Part shown: positions 6,819 to 62,502 of the stretch, piece after piece
Position numbering within the stretch: the first letter of the stretch is position 1
Layout of the letters: every line of letters begins with the position of its first letter
Assembly (NCBI GenBank): GCA_022410635.1
Contig: JAJVDF010000029.1
Location: 1,441,773-1,505,772, forward strand
DNA from: Tretioscincus oriximinensis
Taxonomy: Eukaryota; Chordata; Lepidosauria; Squamata; Gymnophthalmidae
Reading direction: 5' to 3'
DNA length: 64,000 bases
Translations under genes and position numbers: made by a program
The notes under the pieces: model-generated
What the model was told of the DNA's origin: nothing
Seen by the model: only the letters and a program-made list of their open reading frames with translations
The model's database searches: none

Positions 6819-8548
6819 TTCTGTCTCACACAGAGGCCCACCAATTGCACCTGGGCAGTCTGGAACAGAAGTAAACAAAATCTTCAACTGTTCCAGGTGC
6901 CCTGCAAATGGTATTTCAGGAATACTGCTTGTTGCTCCATCTCAGAGGTAGCATCAAGACCTATAAGCTTTGTGTCCATACACTTCTCCAATCCTCTCTT
7001 AAAATTATCCAGGATGCTAGCTACCAACACCTCTTCTGGAAGTAAATTCCAAAAGCTGATGATCCTCTGGGTGAAAAAATGCTTTCCTTTGTCTGTCCTC
7101 ACTCTTCTGCCTATCAGTTTCAAGGAATGCCCCATGGTCCTAGTGTTGTGTGATAGAGAAAACAATTTTCCTCTATTCACTTTATTCACCCTATGCATGA
7201 TTTTATACACCTCAATCAGATCACCTCTCAAACACCATCTTTCAAGGTTGAAAAGGTCCAGATGTTGCAGCCTGACAACATAATGGAGGTGCTCCAGCGT
7301 CCTGATCATTCTTGTTGCCCTTTTCTGCACCTTCTCTAGTTCCACAATATCTTTTGAGATGTGGTGACCAGAATTGTATTCCAAATGGGGCCTCATCATA
7401 AACTTATGAAGAGGCAAAACAACACTTGCTGACTTGTTTTCGATTCCTTTCCTAATTATCCGTAACATTGAATTTACTTTTTATGCTGCTGCCGCACACT
7501 GGGACGACACCTTCATTAAATTGTCCATCAACACCCCAAGATCTTTTTCCTGCTCAGCCACAGAAAGCTTGGTTCCCATCAGTTGATAGGAATAACTGGG
7601 GTTCTTTGCCCAATGTGCACGACTTTGCATTTACTTAGGTTGAAATGCATTTGCCACTTTGTGGCCCATTCATTCAATTTCAATAGATCACTCTGAGATC
7701 ACTTTCAGTTTTCACTACCCTGAACAGTTAGTGTTGTCAGCGAACTTAGCTACTTCACTATTTACCTCAGCATGCAGATCGTTTATGAATATATTGAAAA
7801 CAGAGATCCCAGTACAAACCCATGGCGTACTCCACTTCTTATCTCTTTCCATTCATAGAATTGTCCATTTATTACTACCCTCTGTTTTCTATGTTTTAAT
7901 CAGTTTCCAATGCAGGACAAGGTCTATCCTCTTATTCCATGGCAGTAGAGCATTTTGGGGAGTCTTTGATGAAGGACTTTATCAAAAGTCTACTTAAAAC
8001 CTAGATAGACATTATCAACTGGATCCTCTTTATCCATGTGTTTATTAACACACTAAAAAAATTCTAACAAATTTGTAATGCATGATTTACTTTTGCAGAA
8101 ACCATGCTGAGTTTCAATGAGCAATGTGTGCTTCTCCATGTGTTTAGTAATTTTGTCCTTAATTATGGTTTCCAACACTTTACTTGGAACACATGTTAAA
8201 CTGATGGATGTATAATTTCCGAAAGCACCCCGAGGTCCTTTCTCGAAGATTGGTGTTACGTTAGCTACCCTCCAACCTACTGGCACAGGGCCTGATCTTA
8301 AGGAAAGATTAAATATTTTGGCTAGAAGTTCAGCAATTTCACATTTTAGTTTTTTAAGAATTCGTGGATGAATGCCATCTTGCTCTGGGAATTTATTAAT
8401 GTTTAGCCTGTTAAGGCCAGCAAGGACCTTTTCCCTTGTTATCTCTAACCAGTTTAATTCCTCTGATGCCCTGCCTGAAAAGACTAGTTTCGTTGCAGGT
8501 ATATACTCCCTGTCCTCTTCAGTTTCAAATAGCTGAGGAAAATAGGGA
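6819..8548 (-). mobile_element. CR1 LINE, 5'-truncated, inserted into BovB
   Basis: Read on the minus strand, the copy holds much of CR1 ORF2. An open stretch 8053-8613 includes the RT fingers region with 'FPEQDGIHPRILKKL' and 'PVPVGWRVANVTPIF'; after several breaks 6884-7468 encodes the C-terminal region with 'RPHLEY', 'ELEKVQKRATRMI' and 'FWNLLPEEV'. The RT catalytic box near 7738-7752 reads KFADN in place of FADD. The 3' untranslated part ends near 6819. Stops and frameshifts show an inactive copy. It lies between two collinear BovB segments, so it jumped into BovB. Confidence 0.88.
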
Positions 8549-14905: not shown

Positions 14906-15150
14906 ATCTACTTATAATTCCATAGTAGGATATTCTGGAATAACGTTGTCCAGAAAGTGCTATATTCCAGTATGTTAAAATACAGTGGAATAGTTAAACA
15001 TAATCTGGATACAGCGTTTTCTCAACAGTACTGTTACTTTAAAAAAAATACCAGACAAAAATCAAATTGGCATCTGTCTTCCTAATGTAATTATAGATAA
15101 TGTAACTATAGTAAGGGTATTATAGTATTGTTATTGAAAGTCTGTATATA

Positions 15151-15315
15151 TAGGCTGACCAGATGATCCCTTTTGTGGGGGGTTGAAAACCCGGTTTTGG
15201 ACTGCCTCCCAGTTTTTTCTGGGGAAATTTTTTTCAAAAAAATATTTATTTTCAATTTNCCCCCCCCAAAATGGGTTTTCAACCCCCCACAAAAAAGGGT
15301 CTTTGGGTCAGCCTA
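15151..15315. mobile_element. Palindromic hAT-like MITE, family A
   Basis: Begins 'taggctgaccagatgatccc' and ends with the inverted 'gggtcagccta'. The interior is a near-perfect foldback: 'ttgaaaacccggttttgga' returns as 'aaaatgggttttcaacccc', around an AT-rich centre. One of seven copies in the window (also 31.9, 39.8, 44.9, 51.5, 54.9 and 62.1 kb). No coding capacity; movement would depend on a transposase supplied elsewhere. Confidence 0.85.
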
Positions 15316-16754
15316 GATATTGTGCACCAGAGGGGAGCGGAGGTTTGAGTGTGCATAATGGTATTTTTGTTGTTTTTGTTTATATGATATTTAAAGCAAT
15401 AAAATATTTTTAAAAATAGTACTGTTACTAATATCATAAATGATCAAAAGATTTTTGCAGGAAAACTTTATATTACTATTCAATTTTAGAACATGTATGA
15501 ATAACGATAATTTAAAAAAGTTATATTTGTCTGCTCCCAATAATTGAAAATAAAGATATAAATTACTTTATTGACATGCGCTATCCCTGAAAACTGTCTT
15601 TATCTCTTGGAGGCTGAGTAGAACTAGGGAGGAGGCTTCTCAAATCATTTTCCCCTCAGCAAGATATAGAAAATGTTTGAGAAAAGGCAGTGCAAAATCT
15701 CTAAAGAAGATCTGTGAATTATCAAGATGGAAGGTTTTGTTGATCCTGATACCTGCTTAAACCTAACAGACAATGGTACTTGGTTTCTTTGTCTGGCTAT
15801 TTTATCTCTCAGGAGGTAGAAACTGAGACGAGGCAGTCAGCTTCCTGAACTTAATGATGAGTGACAGTGGTTGACGGACTGGAAGTGATAGGTACCTTGG
15901 GAAAACGGACGAAGTCATGATAAGTAAGGGGGGAAGCTCAGTTAAGCACCCTAAATTTCAGGAAAACTTTAGAGAAAAAATGGATATGATTCTGTGGTTT
16001 GAAATTCAACATAACAAACATGGCTAAGGGGGAAAGGAGATCTTTAGAATACAGATATAATTTTTTTTATGAGAACTAAAATAGAGAAACTTAAAAAGGT
16101 CCATAGGGACCTGTAGAAATCTTGCTGGAAAAAAGAAGGAGGACCAAAAAGTCACAGATGAAAAAAGAAAAATGGAGACTGTATGATAAGCAAGGAGGAG
16201 AAAGAGTTGGTAGCTTGAGGTTATAGGGATGGAGTCAGGGAGGCCAAAGCTCAGGATGAGGTTACAGTAAATGCCCAAAAAAATTAGAGAACAAATTTTC
16301 AGAGGTGTCAAAAGCAAAACAAAGACTCTAAAAACACTACAAATCTGTTGCTCGGGAAAGATAGAAAGTTGTAATGGCAGATGGAAAGAAGGCAGATCTA
16401 CCTACTTTCTCTCACTTAAATCTGTCTTCTCTCAGAAGAGGGGGAAAAAAACTAGTAGCAGTAATAGTGTAGCAGTAGAGTTATAGCTCATGATGATAAA
16501 AATAGGATGCAGAGCAACTTGTCTGTGACTTTGAGTTTCCGCTAAGATGGGATGGATGGGCAAAGACCAAATAACTGTGGTTCCGGAGAAGCCCTGTGGA
16601 GACAACATATGGATGGAATGTCATTTGCATACTTCTCAGGCTAGGATGCTAACCAGGAATCAGAAGTGGGTTTGAAAGTCACATGATTGAAGACTTTGAT
16701 GCTGCCTCCAGACAACAACCAATAATAGCTCTATAAAGCAATAATCTGGAATAC
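15316..16754. other. No feature recognised
   Basis: AT-rich, unique-looking. Frames up to 97 codons without domains. Confidence 0.4.
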
Positions 16755-21455: not shown

Positions 21456-22235
21456 TAAGAACATAAGAACATAAGAAGAGCCATATTGGATCAGGCTAGA
21501 GCCTATCTAGTCCAGCATTCTGTGTCACACAGAGGCCCACCAGATGCACCTGGGCAGTCTGAACAGCGGAAAGCAAAATATGCACCTGTTCATGGCTCCC
21601 TGCAAATGGCATTTCAGGAGCACTACCTGTTGCTCCATACCAGAGGCAGCATCCAGACATTCATCCTAGTACCCATTTGTACCCTTCGTACCCATAAACC
21701 TGTCTAGTCCTGTCTTGAAGCTATCCAAGCTGTTAGTTACCACCACCTCTTCCGGAAGTAAATTCTACAGGCCAATGTCCCTCTAGGTGAAAAAATACTT
21801 TCCTTTGTCTGTTCTCACTTTTCTACCCATCAGTTTCAAGGAGGGCCCTCTGGTCCTAGTGTTGTGTGATAGAGAAAACATTTTTCTCTATTCACCCTGT
21901 CCATCCCATGCATGCTTTTGTACACTTCAATCAGATCACCTCTCAAATGTTGTCTTTCGGGGCTGAAGAGGCCCAGACTTTGCAGCCTGACTTCGTAAGG
22001 GAGGTGCTCCAGACCCTTGATCATTCTTGTTGCCCTTTTCTGCACCTTCTCTAGTTCCATAATATCCCTCTTGAGATGTGGTGACCAGAACTGAATACAG
22101 TATTCCAAATGTGGACTCACCACAGATTTATAAAGAGGCAAAATAACATTTGCTGACTTGTTTTCGATTCCTTTCCTAATTATCCCCCCAAATGGAATTT
22201 GCCTTTTTTTTGTTGCTGCTGCACACTGGGTTGAC
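21456..22235 (-). mobile_element. CR1 LINE 3' part with ORF2 C-terminus
   Basis: Plus-strand left end is 'aagaacataagaacataaga', the inverted 'cttatgtt' tail. The minus strand then encodes, at 21836-22237, the ORF2 C-terminal region with 'RKGIENKSANVILPLYKSVV', 'SPHLEY', 'ELEKVQKRATRMIKGLEHL', 'PYEVRLQSLGLFSPERQ' and 'LRGDLIEVYK'. The upstream RT domain is absent (5' truncation), as is usual for CR1. Confidence 0.9.
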
Positions 22236-31864: not shown

Positions 31865-32084
31865 TAGGCTGACCAGATGACCCCTTTTGCAGGGGGTTGA
31901 AAACCCATTTTTGGGGTGCCTCCCATTTTTTTCTGAGGAAAATAAATTAAAAAGCAAAAAAGAAATTTGAAAAAAAATGTTTTTTTGAAAAAAANTTCCT
32001 TAGAAAAAACTGGGAGGCACCCCAAAACCTGGTTTTCAACACACACATACACACACACCCCAAAGGGGTCATCTGGTCAGCTTA
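31865..32084. mobile_element. Palindromic hAT-like MITE, family A
   Basis: 'taggctgaccagatgacccc' to 'tcatctggtcagctta', with arms 'ttgaaaacccatttttgggg' and 'ccaaaacctggttttcaac'. The right arm contains an AC-rich replacement (32041-32060). Flanks show no clear 8-bp duplication. Confidence 0.85.
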
Positions 32085-32474
32085 GGTGAGGATAAAAGAG
32101 CATCAATAATGTATATATTTTACTTCAAGCTATTAAAAAAAGGTTGGCTAGAAATTCCACACAAAAATGTCAGTAAATAAAGGTGGAGCCTTTCAGTATC
32201 ATTCTTTGTTGTAACTCATGAAAGCACATTTAAAGGAGAAAAAAATACACCCAATTTGTTGAAAGTTTCTCTGCACTCAGGCATTGCTTACTCTTTCTAC
32301 TAGGACCTTCACAATAAAACACTTTCTGGACTTCTTCGTTCCAGGACATTCAACCGTAGAGGAATTAATGACATCTGGATGGAGCTTATATGACATTCTC
32401 TAGCTAACATTGCAGCAGCTTGCTAAGGAGGAGCAATTTACCGACAAAACAGCTGTTTACCTCTAATCTGACTG

Positions 32475-42990: not shown

Positions 42991-44100
42991 GGAATGAAAT
43001 AGAAATTATTCTTAGACACACTTACAAAATTTATATAAAAAAAATCTGCCCGCAGTGCTTTTTGTATTGCTCAGAATGAATGGCATAAATGAGAAGAGCT
43101 GCAAGGACAAACACAATCAGTGAGTAATAAATAGCCAAGAAGCTCTTGGTAACTGAAATGAACAAGGCAATTTTGTCTTTCATAATAGTGAAGAACCCAC
43201 ATATTAGTGATGAATACCAAAGAAATTGCTATGATAAATAACCTAATACAAATCCGTCACCTGACATTCTTGGGTGAGAAAGGAAATGAAAGGGCAGCTC
43301 AAAAATCTGTAGGTGGCGCTGGTGAGCCAAAATAGTTTGAATATCCCAAAGCTATCCTAAAAATAAGACAGATTTCCATTCAAGATTTCATAAAGATCTA
43401 TTTCAGTTAACTCCTGGAGCTTTTGTGCAGGAGAACTCTGATTCAGAATAGCTTTTTTGCGTATATTCTCATGCAATAAAAGAAGATTCAGATTTATATC
43501 CTCAAGCCATGTGTGCAAGGGTAGAAGGAAGCTTTTGCTAACCTGGAACTATTCCGTGCAAACATGAAGTGGATGTGTAAATGCACAGCTTTGCAGTAAG
43601 GTTCTCCGAGGGTCATACTCTGAATGGTACCGTTCTTTTCCCTTGCTGCCTTAACTCCACCTCAACTTGGAATTAAGAGATGCCACCAGGTAGAATTTGA
43701 ATTACTAGTTTGATATCCAGAATAATCTCTGTCTATTGGTGTCTGTTTTAAATAGGTTGTTTTAAATAGGTCTGGTTTCTCAAAATAAGAGCCCCAGGGA
43801 ACAAAAAACCTTGAATTACATCTAGGGCGTGTTCACACTTGACTGGGTTGGAATCATTGTTCTTTGGTAGGGAATGCTTTCCACCATTTGCACTTCTTGG
43901 CAGAAGAATTCCTGTTCCTAGCCAATGCCCCCTCTCACCATTATTCTGATGGTGGTGGGGATTCTGCACACACATAGCACGGGCAACAATTTTCTGCCCA
44001 GTCACAACAAGGGAGGTGTCAAGAATGTTTGAATAGCAAAGGCTTGGAATGCAGCATTGTTACTTCTTTGGAAATGTTTCACAGCACATGAAAGACTGTG
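42991..44100. other. No gene; weak inverted ends at 43828-44008
   Basis: 'gttcacacttgactgggttg' and the later 'gcccagtcacaacaag' form a short, imperfect inverted pair about 180 bp apart; possible small MITE. Otherwise unique-looking. Confidence 0.35.
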
Positions 44101-44101
44101 C

Positions 44102-44184
<83 letters not shown>
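44102..44184. repeat. (ATT)n microsatellite
   Basis: 83 bases of perfect ATT repeat. Confidence 0.98.
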
Positions 44185-44499
44185 GAACAAAGAAACTACA
44201 AAGGAAGATTTGAAAGAGAAGCAGCAGAACTTGAATACATTCACAAGTTCCAGGCCATCAGCAAAGGACTTAACAGAGACAATGGTTTCCTGGCCAACTA
44301 TACATTCTTATGAAACCTGTTAAGTACTTGATTGCTTCTCTACTAGACATTGCCCCTTGTTGCCCCAGGCACTTTTTCACACAAGGAGATTAGTTCCTGC
44401 TATTTACCTGTTTTTCTACCTGCAATTCAACACCTCTCTACAGTTGCATATGCTTTGTCTTCTCCCATACACATTTCCCTATAAATACCTGACCTTGGC

Positions 44500-44634
44500 A
44501 TTAGTCCCTCAGCATCTGAAGAAGTAGAAGTGTCTACGAAAGCTTATGCCAACCACTTTTCTCAAGTTAGTCTCAAAGTGCTGCTAGCTCCTTTGCTGGA
44601 CTTTCTGCTAGACTAACACGGCTATTTCTCTGAA

Positions 44635-44636
<2 letters not shown>
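44500..44636 (-). mobile_element. Single-arm copy of the hammerhead-like repeat
   Basis: On +: 'attagtccctcagcatctga', core 'ctgaaga' + 'gtaga/tctac' stem + 'gaaagcttatgc', then 'ttagtctcaaagtgctgcta', 'gctcctttgctggactttct' and 'agactaacacggctatttct', ending 'ctgaa' directly against an ATT tract. Unlike the 5.7 and 29.4 kb copies it holds one full arm, so it shows the complete unit (~137 bp). Confidence 0.75.
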
Positions 44637-44724
<88 letters not shown>

Positions 44725-46327: not shown

Positions 46328-47560
46328 CATAAGAACATAAGAAGAGCCATACTGGATCGGGCCAGACTCCATCTAGTCCAGCATTCTGTGTCACACAGAG
46401 GCCCACCTGGAACAAAAAATGTTCTGCACCTGGGCAGTCCGAATAGAGGAAAACAAAATATGCACCTGTTCATCACTCCCTGCAAATGGCATTTCAGGAG
46501 CATTACTTGTTGCTCCATCCCAGAGGCAGCATCCAGACATCCATCCTAGTACCCATTTATACCTTTCGTATCCATAAACCTGTCTAGTCCTGTCTTGAAG
46601 CTATCCATGCTGTTAGCTACAACCATCTCTTCAGGAAGTAAATTCCACAGGCCAGTGACCCTCTGGGTGAAAAAATACTTTCCTTTGTCTGTTATCACTT
46701 TTCTGCCCATCAGTTTTAAGTAGTGCCCTCTGGTCCTAGTGCTGTGTGATAGAGAAAACATTTTTTCTCTATTCACCCTATCCATCCCATGCATGATTTT
46801 GTACACTTCAATTAGATCACTTCTCAAACATTGCCTTTCGAGGGTGAAGAGGCCCAGACGTTGCAGCCTGACTTCGTAAGAGAGGTGCTCCAGACCCTTG
46901 ATCATTTTTGTTGCCCTTTTCTGCACCTTCTCTAGTTCCATAATATTCCTCTTGAGATGTAGTGACCAGAACTGAACACAATATTCCAAATGTGGCCTCA
47001 CCACAGATTTATAAAAAGACAAAAGAACATTTGCTGACTTGTTTTCGATTCCTTTCCTAATTATCCCCAACATGGAATTTGCCTTTTTGCTGCTGCTGCA
47101 CAATGGGTTGATATTTTCATTGAATTGTCCACCGACACCCCAAGATCCTTTTCTTGCTTGGTCACAGAAAGTTTGGTTCCCATCAGTTGGTGGGAGTAAT
47201 TGGGGTTCTTTGCCCCAATATGCATGACCTTGCACTTGCTTAAGTTGAAGTGCATTTGCCACTTTGATGCCCACTCACCCAATTTCAATAGATCAGTCTG
47301 GAGTGCCTTACAATCATTTCAGTTTTCACTACCCTGAACAGTTTAGTGTCGTCAGCAAACTTGGCCACTTCACTATTTACCTCGGCATCCAGATCATTTA
47401 TAAATACTGTATTGAAAAGCAAAGGTCCCAGTATAGACCCCTGGGGTACCCCGCTTCTTATCTCTTTCCACTCAGAGAAAGTATTTATTACTACTATCTG
47501 TTTTCTATCTTTTAGCTCACTGATGAGCCAAGTTATTTCAAGACATTTTGTCCTCTTTCT
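46328..47560 (-). mobile_element. CR1 LINE with RT catalytic box and C-terminus
   Basis: The best-kept CR1 in the window. A minus-strand frame 46546-47274 encodes ~240 residues including 'MLGIIRKGIENKSANVLLSF', 'RPHLEYCVQFW', 'ELEKVQKRATKMIKGLEHL' and 'VTGLWNLLPEEMVV'. Just upstream, in another frame (47285-47520), are 'SGVPQGSILGPLLF' (RT block B) and the catalytic FADD (47348-47359). A frameshift near 47280 separates the two. The 3' tail on + is 'cataagaacataagaagagc'. The 5' end stops against a TTTC tract. RT here would copy CR1 RNA at the nick; this copy is dead. Confidence 0.92.
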
Positions 47561-49573: not shown

Positions 49574-49712
49574 TTCAGAGAAATAGCCGTGTTAGTCTGT
49601 AGAAAGTCCAGCAAAGGAGCTAGTAGCACTTTGAGACTAACTAGAGAAAAGTGGGTGGCATAAACTTTCGTAGACAAGTCTACTTCTTCAGATGAGCATC
49701 TGAAGAGTTTAG
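49574..49712 (+). mobile_element. Hammerhead-like repeat, arm plus short return
   Basis: 'cagagaaatagccgtgttag' to 'cttcttcagatgagcatctg' + 'aaga'. The first arm is complete, the inverted arm stops after ~12 bases. The core is on the minus strand. Lies 80 bp left of the palindrome-array element. Confidence 0.75.
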
Positions 49713-49793: not shown

Positions 49794-51435
49794 TACCGGT
49801 GTAACAGGCCAGTGTCTACCCGTCGCCCACGTATACCTGGAGTCAAAGTGGCTTAGGCTAAATTATATCCCGGCTATATTACAGCCTAAACCAATTTATA
49901 CCTGGGGTATAAACTGGTCTAGGCCAATTCATACCCTCTTTGGGCCAATTTATACCCCCTCACATCACTCATACCCCCATGATATCACTAGCGTTGTGTA
50001 AAATAGACAACTAGGGAAATAAGTACATTTATGGATTGGGATTGAATGAACTCTAACACTGCTACCCCCAAGGCCATCCCATCNCAAGCCACCCCACCCA
50101 CACATTGACTCAGGCCCATTAATCTCTTTTACCACCTCCCATCCTTTGTCTGGTTTGATCATATGGGGCCACCGCTTTCTGTGTGTGTATGTGTTTAGGT
50201 ATGTGAGTGTGTGTGTACTTCACTGCAGTTCGAAATGGGCTTCATCTGGTTCGGCTGCATGGTTGAGCCTTTTCATTTGTGTACGTGTGTGTGTACTTCA
50301 CTGTGACCTGAAATGGGCTTTTCTCAGTTCGACTGCAAGGTGCCGCCATTTTTTGAAATTTTTAATGCTGACCGTGTGTTGTTTGTAGCGCAAGCCAGTT
50401 CATGCAAACAGCTCAAAAGGGAAGGGGGAAGGAGGAGAAAGGGAGGGGATTGGGGAGTGGCGTTCAACAGCATGACGTGGCCTTTCGGCAGCCAAGGCTC
50501 TGCCAAAGGCAGGTGTGTGCCATCGAATGTCCAGCGGGGACTGGAGTGTCCTGACTTGGTGGCCGGGGAAGGGCTGGAGTAGGCCCGATTCTCAGGCTCC
50601 ATTATTGAGAGCACCCAAAGGTCTTTGGGTGTCTGCCAGTAATGGAGCCCAAGGATTTGGCCTACTCCAGGACAGAAGGGGGAGGTAGGGACAGGTGCCG
50701 GTGGGGGCAATTTGTCCCCAGGTTCCTGTATGTCTTGGTGACATCACTGCTTCCTGAATGGCATAGTGACATCATCACCTGTGGGCAATTATAATATAAT
50801 AGTGGAATAAGCCCATGTTTATGCAATGGATTCTTGCTTTATGTTTATGCAATGGATTCTAGCTGCATGAGGATAAGTTTGTTATTGTTTAGACCTGGCT
50901 TTTCAACCCAATATCTTTTCTATAGGGGTATAATCTGGCCTAGGTCAGTTTATCTCCCATGGCATCGATGGGCATAAGATACAAAGAGAGGGCAAAAACA
51001 CCAATGAAGTGGTAACAGAGGAAGCAACTTTGAAAACAAATCAGTAAATATCTTTTCTATAGGGATATAGTCTGGCCTAGGCCAGTTTATTCCCCATTAC
51101 ATTGATGGGCATAAGGTACGAAGAGAGGGCGAGAACACCAGCAAAGTGGTAACAGAGGAAGCAGCATTGAAAAACAACCACTAAATACCTTTTCTATAGG
51201 TTTAAAGTCTTGCCTAGGCTAATTTATTCCCAGGGTATAATCTAGCCTAGGCCACTTTAACCCCGGGTATAGTCTGGCCTGGAGGGGCATATTCAGGCCT
51301 GAGGGGTATAATCTGACCTGGAGGGATATAGTCTGGCCTTTAGGCCAGTTCATTCTTAGGGTACAATTTAGCCTAGGACACTTTAACCCCAGGTATAGTC
51401 TGGGCGGGGGTATACTCTGACCTCTTACACTGGTA
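49794..51435. mobile_element. Undescribed(?) element with long TIRs and palindromic repeat array
   Basis: Left end 'taccggtgtaacaggccag' and right end, inverted, 'taccagtgtaagaggtcag' start a ~77 bp terminal inverted repeat (49794-49871 against 51358-51435) that includes 'tatacctggagtcaaagtg' / 'tatacctggggttaaagtg' and 'taggctaaatt' on both sides. Inside, palindromic units with core TGGCCTAGGCCA framed by 'ggtata' and 'tttattccc' recur, mainly in the right third. Three 137-bp direct units start at 50911, 51048 and 51185. The middle contains a hairpin (50571-50669) and a ~80 bp duplication. No transposase seen. Possible target duplication TA or TTA/TAT; not certain. A non-autonomous DNA transposon is the likeliest reading. 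Confidence 0.65.
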
Positions 51436-51451: not shown

Positions 51452-51640
51452 TAGGCTGACCAGATGACCTCTTTTTTTGGGGGGGCTGAAAACCCATTTT
51501 TGGGGTGCCTCCCAGTTTTTTCTGAGAAAACGTTTTTCAAAAAAAGATTTTTTTCCGAATTTTTTTCCTCAGAAAAAACCGGGAGGCACCCCAAAAATGG
51601 GTTTTCAACCGCACAAAAAAGGGGTCATCTGGTAAGCCTA
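51452..51640. mobile_element. Palindromic hAT-like MITE, family A
   Basis: 'taggctgaccagatgacctc' to 'tcatctggtaagccta', arms 'gaaaacccatttttggggtg' + 'cctcccagttttttctgag' returning as 'ctcagaaaaaaccgggaggc' + 'accccaaaaatgggttttc'. One of the best foldbacks of the family. Confidence 0.88.
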
Positions 51641-51666
51641 GAAAAGGGCATTATAAATAGTTGCTT

Positions 51667-51668
<2 letters not shown>

Positions 51669-51707
<39 letters not shown>

Positions 51708-51755
51708 TAATAATAATAATAATAATAATTAATAATAATAATAATAATAATAAAA
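51669..51755. repeat. (AAT)n microsatellite
   Basis: 87 bases of AAT repeat with two 'aattaat' slips. Third long A/T triplet tract of the 44-52 kb part. Confidence 0.97.
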
Positions 51756-52283: not shown

Positions 52284-54100
52284 TTATTTATTTATTTATA
52301 CATAGTTATACCCTGCCCAATACCCAAAGGTCTTCTTAACACCTTGGCATTGTTAAAGTCACTATTCATCAGCTACAAAGGACAGTAATACCTGGAACAG
52401 TGTGTATATTCTGCCCTGTATCCAAGGTCTCAGGACAAAAAATGAAACAGAATAAATTAGAGCAATTTTAAATACATCTGTCTAAAAATACAACAGTGCC
52501 TCCAAGGAGCAGAGGATATTTGGCTCAGCCAAAGGTAAGGGTCACCAGGCATCTGAATGCATACAGTGAAGGTACCTGGTGCACCTCAGAGGGTTGCACA
52601 ACCTGGGGCTCTCACAGAGAAGACTTTCCCACACATCAAGGGAGTGGGACTATCAGGAGAGCCTCAACAGGTCTTAGGGTGTGGGCAAGTACCTATGAGA
52701 GGTGTCCCTTCAAATATTTGGGCCCAAGCTGTTTAGGGCCTTATAAGTCAGAGTTTAGTACCTTGAATTGGGCTCCTAGTGAATAGGCAGCCAGTGCAGT
52801 TTTTTCAGGACCGGTATAATGTGTGTCCAGCAAGCTGTACCAGTCAGCAGCGTCACTGCTGAGTTCCACACCAGCTGTATCTTCTGAACCATCTTCAGGG
52901 ATAGCCTCACGTAGAGCGCATTGCAATAGTCCAGTCTGGAAGTAACCAGAGCATGGAGTATGGTGGCCAGGTTGTTTCTGTCCCAAAAGGGTCTTAACTG
53001 GCGAACCAGATGTAGCTGAAAATAGGTGCTTCTGACCACTGCCTGTGCCTGAGCATCAAGTGTCAGTTTGAAGTCCAAGAGCAGGTTCGTAATCTGGGGA
53101 TGCGCAGATTACACACATTTTCTTTTCAGGCCAAAGAAACCCCATCAAGGACAGGATGTTTCCAATCTTCACGGATACAAGAACTTCTAACACACAGCAC
53201 CTCTGTCTGTTTCAGTTTCAATTTATTGGCCTTCTTCCAGCCCATTACTGCCTCCAAACATTTGTCAAACACTTCAAACACTGCCTCCCTTGATTCAGGT
53301 GGCATGGGGAGATAGAGCTGGGTGTCATCTGCATATAGGTGACACCTCACTCCAAAATGGCTTACAACTTCTCCTACTAGCTTCATATAGATATTAAATA
53401 GCATGGGAGATAAAATCAACCCCTAGGACTCTCCACCCCCCACCCCAAATGAGCTCCTAGGGAGTCGAGCTGCAATTTCCCACAACCACTGTCCGGTATT
53501 GGCCCTGGAGATAGGAGTAGGACCACTGCAGCACAGTGTTTCCAACTCCTAGACTCCATAGCCTCTCCAGAAGAATATCACGTTAATGGTATCGAAAGCC
53601 ATTGTGAGATCCAGGAGAACCAACAAACATTTCTCCCAGAGGAGGTCCTTCACAAGGGCAACCAACGCAGTTTCTGTGCCATGACCAGATCTGAAGTCAG
53701 ATTGAAATGGGTCCAGATAAACAGTACCCTCTAAACATGCTTGCAATTGGACAACCACCACCCTCTCCAGTACCTTGCCCAGGAAGGGATATATTGGCTA
53801 CTGGGTGATAGTTGTTTGGGTCATCTGGATCCAGGCAAGGCTTCTTGAGGAGGGGGTGCACCACTGACTCTTTAAGAGCTCTCAAGGAAGCAGTCACCAC
53901 TTTCTGGTCCCATCTCATCATACCACTTAGCTTTTATCAACCAAGAGGAGCAAGGATCCATTGAGCATGTGGTAGGTCAAATTCCAACAAGCAGCTGGTC
54001 CACATCCTTAGTCTACAGTATTTTAAACTGATCCAAGATGACTGGACCAGACAGTACTCTAGATGCTTCCTCACAGACTACTCATTGACACTTCTGATTA
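52284..54100 (-). mobile_element. L2 LINE with RT domain and 3' end
   Basis: Minus strand, from 5' to 3': 'VHPLLKKPCLDPDDPNNYHP' (about 53800-53880, RT block 1/2), 'FQSDFRSGHGTETALVALV' with 'LVLLDLTMAFDTIN' (53570-53720, block A), 'MILSPMLFNIYM' (53384-53419, block B), catalytic YADD (53324-53335), 'LVRQLRPFWDRNNLATILHA' and 'LVTSRLDYCNALYVRL' (about 52915-52975), then 'TLLTGTACWTHIIPVL' and 'KKLHWLPIH' (52776-52830). The 3' untranslated part runs to an inverted 'ataaataaataaaataa' at 52284. Several frameshifts. An RT-only, 5'-truncated, dead copy. Confidence 0.92.
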
Positions 54101-54775: not shown

Positions 54776-55112
54776 TGAGCCTTATTCTGGATTATATCTT
54801 GCCGTAGAGGTCTGCCTTTGACCCCATTTGTGGCCTACTATAGTCTGCACTATATAGGCTGACCAGATGACCCCATTTGGGGGGTGGGTTGAAAACCCGT
54901 TTTTGGGGTGCCTCCCGTTTTTTTCTGAGGAAAAAAAAAATCAAAATCAAAATAAATTCTTTTTTTGAAAAAAAAATTCCTCAGAAAAAATTGGGAGGCA
55001 CCCCAAAACCGGATTTTCAACCCCACCCCCAAAAGGGGTCATCTGGTCAGCATAGAATGTGGATGTCAAAGCCTTATTCTGAGCTGTAGTCCAGAATGAG
55101 ACTCATTTGTAT
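54776..55112. mobile_element. Foldback family H, split by a family A MITE
   Basis: Left part 54776-54854 has 'ctgagccttattctggatta', 'ccccatttgtggcctacta', 'tagtctgcacta'; right part 55055-55112 has 'gaatgtggatgtcaaag', 'ccttattctgagctgtagtc', 'cagaatgagactc'. These follow the 25.93 kb element across its centre ('ggggcctgccat', 'gtctatactggcatctggat'). Confidence 0.6.
54855..55054. mobile_element. Palindromic hAT-like MITE, family A, nested
   Basis: 'taggctgaccagatgacccc' to 'tcatctggtcagcata', with arms 'tttttggggtgcctcccg' + 'tttttttctgagg' and 'cctcagaaaaaattgggagg' + 'caccccaaaacc'. Lies inside a family H element. Confidence 0.85.
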
Positions 55113-56417
55113 CTTCCCACATCCCATGGAAATGAAACATCTGTTGGCAGGCAGCTGAAGCTTTTAAATGCTCTGTTCTACTGGTAACATTGCACAGCCT
55201 TCAACATAAGGTTGCACAAATGCTCCCTATTTGCATAGTGTGACAGGGTGAGCCAGGCAAAGCTGAGAGCCACCACACAGGTTTTGAGGCCACCTGGCAA
55301 ACACCACTCAACTGTCCATCATCCAAGACCCAGACATGCCTCTCTGCTCCCTGGGACCTCCTGTTATCTCACTTTCTCTGTTACTGTCATTGGCTAACAT
55401 CAAGAAAGGGAGATTATGGGAAAAGTTATCTCTGTGAAAAGAACAAGTGCTACTTAACTAACAGCTGCCTTCTCTGAATAGTTTCGTTTTAAAGGAGAAA
55501 AGAATTCACCCATTGTATTGCCTGCCAGGCTATAAGCCTGAAATAGTTGATATAGTGACTCGTTGTCCAGATTCTTGTTTTTGAATTTTTGTCCAAGCTA
55601 AAGAGTTCTTAAACTCTGTAATTCCATTAATCATGAGAAACATATTACCTTGATTTGCTCTGCTAGAGAGAATTGTGGACTGCTGTTAAGCAGTTTAGTT
55701 ATATGAATGATGGCAGCATGATGGGGATCACCCACGAAGTTATATATCCTAGGCTCGGTGCAGGAATTAGTTCACAGAAAGACTTTTTTTAAAAAAAGGA
55801 AAACCCCTTTACACTGAACTTCAAGGAGTAGCTGTGTATGATCTTCACTGTACGGATAGCATCATCTTGGCCTCTCCACTCAATGCTAACCTGATATCCA
55901 GTTATGGAAACAGGGATCACTGCTGTGGGAAAGAAACAGACTGAAAAGAGTCCTGAAAAAAATCCTGTTTCCTGTTTTATGGTTTCAAATTATGTTTCTA
56001 TGCCATGTTTGTTGCAATGAGGAGGACTTATTATAAAAGCTTGGATGTGCAGCAGCTTCACAAAGCTGGCAGGTGCAGCTAGAGCAGCTCAAACGGGAGA
56101 AAGTGAGAGCTTTTGTTTTGCTCTCAGCAGGGTCTGCTGAGAAGGGTAGCCCAAGTAGTGGGCAGCCTCCTCTTTCCAGCCTGCAGGGCTCCCTGCGGAC
56201 TACAGCTCCCAGCCTGCACTGCAATTAGCCCTGGGAAGGAGGAAGCCCACAGGAAACATTTTTGCTGCTACTGGAAATTACCTGGGGGACCCCTATATAT
56301 CTTTCCTGGAGTTCCATGAAAACTTACAAATGGGCAGGCAAGATAAAGAGCTATGTACGTTTCTAAGGTACTGGGCAAAATGGAAGCAGTGTATCCTACT
56401 TCCAGAGGTGGCTTCCT
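55113..56417. other. No feature recognised
   Basis: Unique-looking; frames up to 79 codons without domains. Confidence 0.4.
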
Positions 56418-57400
56418 CATAAGAACATAAGAGGAGCCCTGCTGAATCAGGCCAGAGCCCATCTAGTCCAGCATTCCGTCCCACACAGTGGCCCACCTGA
56501 TGAAACCTGGGCAGTCTGAACACAAGGCAGCGAAATCTTTACCATTTCTTTGCAAACGGTATTTCAGGAATACTGCCTGTTGCTCCATCCTGGAGGCAGA
56601 GTCAAAGGATCTACGCTAGTTTCTATTTATACCCTTGGTATCCATGAACTTGTCTAATCCTGTCTTAAAGCTATCCAGGCTGCTAGCTGCCACCACCTCT
56701 TTTGGAAGTAAATTACAAAGGCCAATGACCCTCTGGGTGAAAAAATACTTTCCTTTGTCTGTTCTCACTCTGCTGCCCATCAGTTTCAAGGAATGCCTCC
56801 TGGTCCTAGTGTTCTATGATTGACAAAATAATTTTCTCTATTCATCTTATCCATGCTGTGCATTATTTTATACACTTCAATCAGATCACATCTTAAACGC
56901 CATCTTTCGGGGCTGAAGAGGCCCAGATGTTGCAGTCTGACTTCATAAGGGAGGTGCTGCAATCCCTTTATCATTCTTGTTGCCCTTTCTGCACCTTCTT
57001 TAGTTCCAGAATATCCTTTTTGAGATGTGATGACCAGAACTGGACACAGTATTCCAAATTTGGCCTCACCACAGATTTATAAAGAGACAAAACAACATTT
57101 ACTGATTTGTTTGGGATTCCTTTCCTAATTATCCCCAACATGGAATTTACTTTTTTTTGCTGCTGCTGCACACTAGGTTGACACCTTCATTGAGGGGTCC
57201 AACAACACCCCAAGATCCTTTTCCTGCTCTGTCACAGAAAGCTTGGTTCCCATCAGTTGCTAGGAGTAATTGTGGTTCTTTGCCCCAATGTGCATGATCT
57301 TGCACTTGCTTAAATTGAAGTGCATTTGCCACTTTGATGCCCACTCACCCAATTTCAGTCCATCACTCTGGACTTCCTTACAATCATTTTCACTTTTCAG
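56418..57400 (-). mobile_element. CR1 LINE 3' part
   Basis: Left end 'cataagaacataagaggagc'. Minus frames 56786-57171 carry 'MLGIIRKGIPNKSVNVVLSL', 'RPNLEYCVQFWSSHLKKDI' and 'HLGLFSPERWRLRCDLIEV'; 57147-57344 and 57260-57493 carry 'LGEWASKWQMHFNLSKCK' and 'MHIGAKNHNYS', the stretch just before. Four frames are needed, so it is heavily shifted. No RT catalytic box is included. Confidence 0.9.
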
Positions 57401-61293: not shown

Positions 61294-62051
61294 TTATCAG
61301 AGATTTAAAAATAGCACAAGGGAAGTGGAAGATGTTATTCCATAAATGTACAGAATTCAGAATTCCTAACTTTTATATAAATGGTATTCAGTTACTCTTG
61401 TCAGCTATCCTGAGACTACGATACACTTTTAAGCTGATTTTTAAATACAAAAATAGAAATAATGATCCAACCCCAACAATTTTAAAGACTAATGATTATT
61501 TCTGCTTTTATATCCTAAGTAGAGCAGATAAAGTTTCAAATTGCTTGAACCTGATTGCCCTTTACCTTCGGGCAAATGCAAGTATTGTCAAGGGCTGGAT
61601 AAGTGCTTCCTTGGCTATTCCAAAAACAGTGAAATTCAGTAAGATGACTTTTTGACAAACTGCTGACTGGAATAAATGCTTTGTGGTGGAATTTGGACTT
61701 GCATCAAGCACACTGGGAGAATTTTCTGCTTCTATGGCTCAAAAGTGAAACATTGCAGATCAGGACTATCCATCAAGCTATCACAATTGGAAAAGTTTTA
61801 AAAGCGGAGAGTAAAAATGTTGAAGTCTAAAGGAGATTTTCTACAAATATAGGCTGCAACATTTGAATTTTAGTTTAGAAAAGGGAGAAGAGATTCAAGT
61901 TTATGAAGTCATACAATACTAGGAAGCAATTTTTATCCTTTTCAAAATACAGAACTAAGACAATTTATCTATTTATCTGGGGAGGGTGATGAAATACAAT
62001 GCACAATTAATGAGGTACAGGTAACTAATACAGGTGTATACTACTTCTGCA
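61294..62051. other. No feature recognised
   Basis: A 123-codon + frame (61284-61655) starts inside the SINE head and has no recognisable domain; not called. Confidence 0.35.
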
Positions 62052-62227
62052 TAGGCTGACCAGATGACCCCTTTCGGGGAGTGTTGAAAACCCGGTTTTG
62101 AGGTGCCTCCCAGTTTTTTATGAGGAACCTTTGTTTGTTTTTAATTATTTTTTCCTCAGAAAAAACTGGGGGGCACCCCCAAAATGGGTTTTCACCCCCC
62201 CAAAAAAGGGGGCATCTGGTCAGTCTA
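62052..62227. mobile_element. Family A MITE with 8-bp duplication
   Basis: 'taggctgaccagatgacccc' to 'gcatctggtcagtcta', flanked on both sides by 'cttctgca' (62044-62051 and 62228-62235). This copy gives the cleanest evidence that family A makes 8-bp duplications, as hAT transposases do. Confidence 0.9.
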
Positions 62228-62502
62228 CTTCTGCATGTAGTAAAAACTGATTAGGAGTCTGATCTTCTGGCTCTCATCCTGGCACATGCCATCTACAAAA
62301 GCTGGAGCATGATCCTAATCAAGAAGGGCCTTATTGAGATTTGCAAAAGGCATTGGACTGGACCATTACCATTACTGTACCAAGAGTCCTTGGTCCAGAA
62401 CATGCATGTGTGCAGAAGACATGCCTCCTATGTTTAAAACTACCCACTTGGCCACATGCCAAAGCTCACTGCTTTGAAGGACATTAGAAACTTAGAAACA
62501 TA

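Follow-up and report, generated by a model that had tools for sequence, protein, structure and literature searches.

The 1,630-bp repeat at positions 49800-51429 is most probably an internally deleted, non-autonomous Ginger1 transposon, with arrays of candidate transposase half-sites at its ends. It lies within the window, by which we mean the whole stretch of 64,000 nucleotides that was analyzed (C29:1441773-1505772; GC content 40.4%, CpG observed/expected ratio 0.22), in a host genome of 1.54 Gb and 2,455 contigs. The size of the genome, the depletion of CpG, and the presence of LINEs suggest a vertebrate host, probably a sauropsid. The element begins with TGTAACA and ends with TCTTACA, as delimited by comparison with the family copies. 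Reading of the sequence placed a target-site duplication, CCGG, on its left (49796-49799); the corresponding tetranucleotide on the right is CTGG (51430-51433), which we read as CCGG after CpG decay. The left terminal inverted repeat (49800-49872, plus strand) is strongly matched over about 72 bp in the family consensus, and its partner is located at 51358-51429 on the minus strand. A preliminary description of this DNA had reported inverted ends of about 77 bp. The 77 nucleotides at 49794-49870 and 51359-51435 are indeed 75% complementary, and the ends reach 79.5% by BLAST with gaps, but the true boundaries lie 6 bp inward on each side. The family, which had been left unrecognized, is Ginger1.

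The left 151 bp of the element were used to search the genome, which gave at least 50 matches, with 40 of 104 candidates scored. Twenty of the matched places were fetched (L009-L028), and the 12 that possess both ends were analyzed with the window copy. These 13 copies range in length from 235 to 3,426 bp. The other eight (L009, L012, L014, L015, L019, L021, L022, and L025) were left out: in each, one end could not be located or had decayed below the motif threshold, although a candidate right end is present in L025. With a long copy designated C452, the both-ended copies number 14, all with TGT...ACA-type ends. Thirteen of them are additional to the window copy, so the possibility that no other genomic copy shares both ends falls away. 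The copies start with TGTAACAGG or a near variant and end with its complement. CCGG followed by 21 bp of the end was found at 187 places genome-wide at no more than 2 mismatches (21 exact), and the reversed pattern at 0; among the matches listed from these 187 places, at least 13 inward-facing pairs of ends are 0.5-5.7 kb apart. Derivatives such as L027 and L012 have the middle of the window copy in common with it. The window copy contains no transposase, and its BLAST comparison with C452 (>60 bits) gave a match over the right end only.

The 28 tetranucleotides flanking the 14 both-ended copies comprise CCGG (14), CCAG or CTGG (10), ACGG (2), TAGG (1), and CAGG (1). CCGG or its one-transition decay products account for 24 of the 28, and 26 are CCGG, CCAG/CTGG, or ACGG; CCGG makes up 0.08% of the 4-mers across the fetched DNA. 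L013 does not fit CCGG on either side, nor does L018 on one of its two sides. Some copies are inserted in repeats that are also found elsewhere in the window or the fetched loci, and their empty sites can therefore be read. In LINE copies, the empty sites have a single CCGG-like site. Of 16 alignments that span the L023 joint, 14 have no gap there, and the nine shown have CCGG (3), CCAG (2), CTGG (3), and CTGA (1). Three of the four alignments for L010 are gapless, with the sites CCGG, CCAG, CCAG, and CCNG. A gap is present in 11 of the 12 alignments for L016 (of a single base in seven of the nine shown), and six bases are missing in all four for L013; these gaps may be small deletions beside the left end. 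The target duplications read from the copies follow a CCGG pattern, which is backed by the empty sites. A duplication of TA or of 8 bp, an idea derived from an initial set of 14 copies, was dropped once this pattern emerged. Empty target sites for L016 and L023 are provided in the window by copies of a single repeat at about 6820-7355, 21460-22067, 46330-46946, and 56417-57021, which we take to be LINE-like.

Ginger1 elements, in the available text of their description (PMC2836005), have TGTNR tips, a 4-bp duplication of CCGG or CCGT/ACGG, inverted ends of 40-270 bp, and a length of 2.6-7 kb. They encode an integrase-like transposase with H2C2, YPYY, and GPY/F motifs and a C-terminal OTU or Ulp1 domain. 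The present family agrees with that text in its TGTAA tips, its CCGG duplication, and its inverted ends (about 72 bp strong and about 200 bp weaker). C452, at 4,326 bp, is inside the length range, and its integrase-like transposase has an H2C2 finger and a possible GPY-like motif followed by OTU. The integrase-type transposase with H2C2 and a DDE core was found in C452 only, and the C-terminal OTU domain in C452 and L016. Ginger2/Tdd was rejected because it needs an AT-rich RTATAY target, while the target here is CCGG. In comparison with Gypsy LTR retrotransposons, which carry a reverse transcriptase between direct long terminal repeats, the ends of the window copy are inverted, not direct, and the integrase pieces of C452 run into OTU.

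The 3.4-kb copy L016 contains a piece of an OTU protease (2e-7), which has 32 matches on 22 contigs. Nine of these contigs were examined (L016 and L029-L036, with the C452 copy as one of the nine). The right end and its array were located upstream of the OTU piece in eight of the nine loci and were not found in L030. The C452 element is complete and is flanked by CCGG at either end. From its right array toward its left end, the reading order is KYPQWIYDL, an H2C2 zinc finger (4.6e-10), an integrase core, LIGPYFVVEFL, and an OTU domain (7e-11) that begins with GDGNC. The integrase core, in X-joined pieces, matched Ty3 integrase (2e-14) and PFV integrase (4.5e-11), while Pfam rve gave only 0.062. 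KYPQWIYDL and LIGPYFVVEFL were spotted by eye in the frames, and the latter resembles the GPY/F motif. The coding region is interrupted by frameshifts and stops. The proposal of a non-autonomous transposon made in the preliminary description has thus held up: both ends are common to other copies, the CCGG duplication is present, and the longer copy that it proposed to look for, with a transposase between the same kind of ends, is C452, in which this gene is broken.

A 167-aa piece of the C452 integrase matched itself in the genome at 2.5e-111, and the next best matches were integrases about 41% identical, at 6.4e-8 or worse; the 150 candidates scored, of 582, thus included no further copy of it. 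In a search of the host genome with Integrase_H2C2, the 150 places listed of 957 candidates included many other integrases, and none of those listed was within 20 kb of the OTU places as judged by eye. When six-frame pieces of six long copies (132 pieces; 75 pieces of L029/L030) were compared with Pfam, OTU was the sole accepted match over the cut-off. The remaining matches, to entries with unrelated names, had E-values no better than 0.0024. Functional OTU-only elements were considered and rejected: the OTU pieces at L016:5704-6018, L029:6143-6496, and L030:5859-6224 lack the GDGNC start and are alike to C452 from TEDN. This points to products of internal deletion rather than of selection, and suggests one amplified internal deletion of a Ginger1 element.

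The 16-letter motif GGCCAGANTATACCCC is the half-site from which the arrays are built. The palindrome GGGGTATAATCTGGCCTAGGCCAGATTATACCCC consists of two copies of GGCCAGANTATACCCC placed head to head with TA between them, and such pairs create the CCTAGG cores. Eight cores had been claimed for the element. Five are exact, at 50939, 51076, 51213, 51246, and 51372, but the other three are variants, namely CTTAGG near 49850, TCTAGG near 49918, and CCTTTAGG near 51340. CCTAGG occurs 5 times in the 1,630 bp of the element versus 6 times in the remaining 62,370 bp. The three direct units of 137 bp described previously are two full units on the plus strand (50910-51046 and 51047-51183; 85% identical), each with one CCTAGG palindrome, and a partial third (51184-51238, plus strand), which is matched over about 44-55 bp at 79-80%. 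At a threshold of at least 11/15 matches to GGCCAGANTATACCCC, the left array (49807-49958) has half-sites at 49807+, 49856+, 49904-, 49922+, and 49943+. The right array (50925-51422) has them at 50925-, 50943+, 51062-, 51080+, 51199-, 51232-, 51264-, 51284-, 51303-, 51323-, 51358-, 51390-, and 51407-. These 18 half-sites compare with a mean of 0.56 and a maximum of 3 in 100 dinucleotide shuffles; at a threshold of at least 12/15, the count is 14 versus a mean of 0.08 and a maximum of 1, again in 100 shuffles. The rest of the window has 13 scattered matches at the lower threshold.

A consensus was built from 19 left ends and 19 right ends. Its left end has 10 half-sites, which cover 158 of 211 columns, and its right end has 11, which cover 176 of 260. 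The two consensus ends hardly differ over about 72 bp, and their resemblance extends to about 200 bp. The outermost half-site starts at base 8 of both ends, directly after the tip TGTAACA, and the half-sites, some in one orientation and some in the other, are separated by short spacers that vary in length. The suspicion that the ends are merely further units of the internal array proved partly justified. The same half-site builds the ends, but they also have the tip TGTAACA, and there the copies stop and CCGG starts. Half-sites recur in individual copies on the left (e.g. 8+, 26+, 58+, 73-, 106-, 124+, and 144+) and on the right (e.g. -22-, -39-, -71-, -105-, -125-, -144-, and -164-); no single copy has all recurring positions at the threshold used. 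C452 has 22 half-sites at no fewer than 11/15 matches. The left ends differ by 8-28% from the consensus. Thirteen of the 19 right ends differ by 3.5-12%, and the remaining six (L013, L018, L027, L028, L031, and L036) by 27-42%, which we ascribe to shifted repeat units and not to age.

We lean toward regarding the end arrays as putative transposase-binding arrays, because the motif is near the tip, is present at both ends, and is repeated in both orientations. By analogy with Ginger1 elements in general, a transposase of the integrase type, provided in trans, would cut at the TGTAA tips and join the ends to staggered CCGG cuts, which would generate the 4-bp duplication. The anatomy of the ends suggests that GGCCAGANTATACCCC, singly or as head-to-head pairs inward from base 8, would be the recognition half-site. 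As in Tn7-like elements, several transposase dimers might be loaded onto the arrays and would thereby bring the two ends together. The inner half-sites, on the gene-start side, may also regulate the transposase promoter or titrate the enzyme.

The same arrays could have arisen passively in a Ginger1 element, as its end was duplicated in tandem and in inverted orientation, with function at the outermost site alone. The palindromes of the 137-bp units are not conserved above their spacers (3/34 versus 11/103 differences; 0.866 versus 0.855 over 24 units), and at the ends, columns within half-sites do not consistently exceed the others in conservation either (right, 0.775 versus 0.82; left, 0.80 versus 0.745), as passive duplication would have it. 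The number of spacer pieces of the 137-bp unit varies: of 20 copies or fragments, 19 have between one and four, and L010 has none. In both-ended copies, these pieces are confined to the final 660 bp at the right end. L010, a copy of 235 bp with 5 half-sites, was inserted with CCGG on both sides; therefore, a full array is not strictly needed, unless this copy was shortened later. The two conservation results and L010 also tell against any particular function of the inner half-sites. However, half-sites are found at recurring positions even in copies that differ greatly in length, and both orientations with unequal short spacers are poorly explained by simple tandem duplication. We regard passive duplication as rather unlikely.

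It is also unlikely that the arrays of this Ginger1 element are sites for a host protein (an activator, insulator, or silencer) rather than for the transposase. The Su(Hw) sites of Drosophila gypsy form a comparable array, and the palindromic 137-bp units are at the right end, upstream in the reading direction of the transposase. Nevertheless, the outermost half-site is at base 8 of both ends, and an array is also present at the end opposite the gene start. Other DNA transposon superfamilies, such as EnSpm/CACTA and hAT, typically have subterminal repeat arrays, but membership in either is hardly credible given the CCGG duplication, the TGTAA tips, and the integrase and OTU gene between the same ends in the 4,326-bp copy C452, which already contradicts it.

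The preferred reading, transposase-binding arrays, has parallels in two other systems. At each end, Tn7-like elements have several repeated sites of about 20 bp for their transposase (TnsB), and the outermost site is close to the boundary, according to the part of PMC8649781 that was available. The present ends share this arrangement of repeated sites and outermost position. Unlike them, Tn7-like elements are bacterial and use other transposition proteins, and Tn7 itself has three and four sites in place of about ten per end; the resemblance concerns a working principle, not membership. In piggyBat, also a vertebrate DNA transposon, the available text of PMC11707139 describes extra subterminal transposase sites that are partly palindromic, as here, with an inner site that lowers activity. 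However, it belongs to another superfamily with another motif, and inner-site regulation is a mere possibility in our family. As a tentative overall picture, which we consider possible rather than probable, a mobile amniote Ginger1 with an integrase-OTU transposase may have ends that evolved into Tn7-like arrays of about ten 16-bp half-sites each, mostly head-to-head dimers around TA. If the Tn7-like array reading is true, Ginger transposases would act as dimers in DNA recognition, on repeated sites that extend far into the ends, and self-regulation would be provided by the inner sites next to the start of the gene.

The Ginger1 superfamily is already known, and the window family adds an elaborate end structure to it. 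The available text of PMC2836005 describes Ginger1 from invertebrates (hydra, sea slug, aphid, and lancelet) and regards it as the origin of two vertebrate genes, Gin-1 and Gin-2. The host here is probably a vertebrate, in contrast to those hosts. The 16-bp half-site arrays and the 137-bp palindrome units go unmentioned in the available part of that description; the string 'palindrom' occurs 0 times in its text. Ginger1 relics have been noted in alligator, turtle, coelacanth, and frog, according to the available part of PMC9004415. Our family shares with them the trace of Ginger1 in vertebrates, including amniotes, but those relics are protein fossils in that account, whereas ends, target duplications, and 14 both-ended copies are present here. 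In human, Ginger1 was not found as repeats, as far as the available part of PMC5753468 indicates. Our search of the literature by title and abstract found no amniote Ginger1 families with ends and no Ginger1 half-site arrays. The clear ends, the CCGG duplications, and one long copy point to Ginger1 movement in a presumably amniote-type genome, and the end arrays provide a concrete DNA motif with which to probe how an integrase-like eukaryotic transposase recognizes its ends.

No matches were obtained when the window was scanned with Rfam and for tRNAs. Several other repeats surround the element. Directly to its left, a short dispersed repeat (49594-49706), presumably SINE-like, has matches in L010, L018, L020, L022, and L027. 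Long (AAT)n microsatellites are located at 51662-51755 and at about 44097-44198 and 44634-44724. The broken frames at 52776-53921 (minus strand) resemble the reverse transcriptase of another LINE, with an ADDTQLYL stretch recognized by eye. A near-palindromic hairpin element (51452-51640) lies 19 bp to the right of the Ginger1 duplication, and its arm tips are 92% complementary. Its relatives were observed in the window at about 15150-15317, 31865-32085, 54854-55057, and 62051-62230, and also in L011, L012, L019, and L020.
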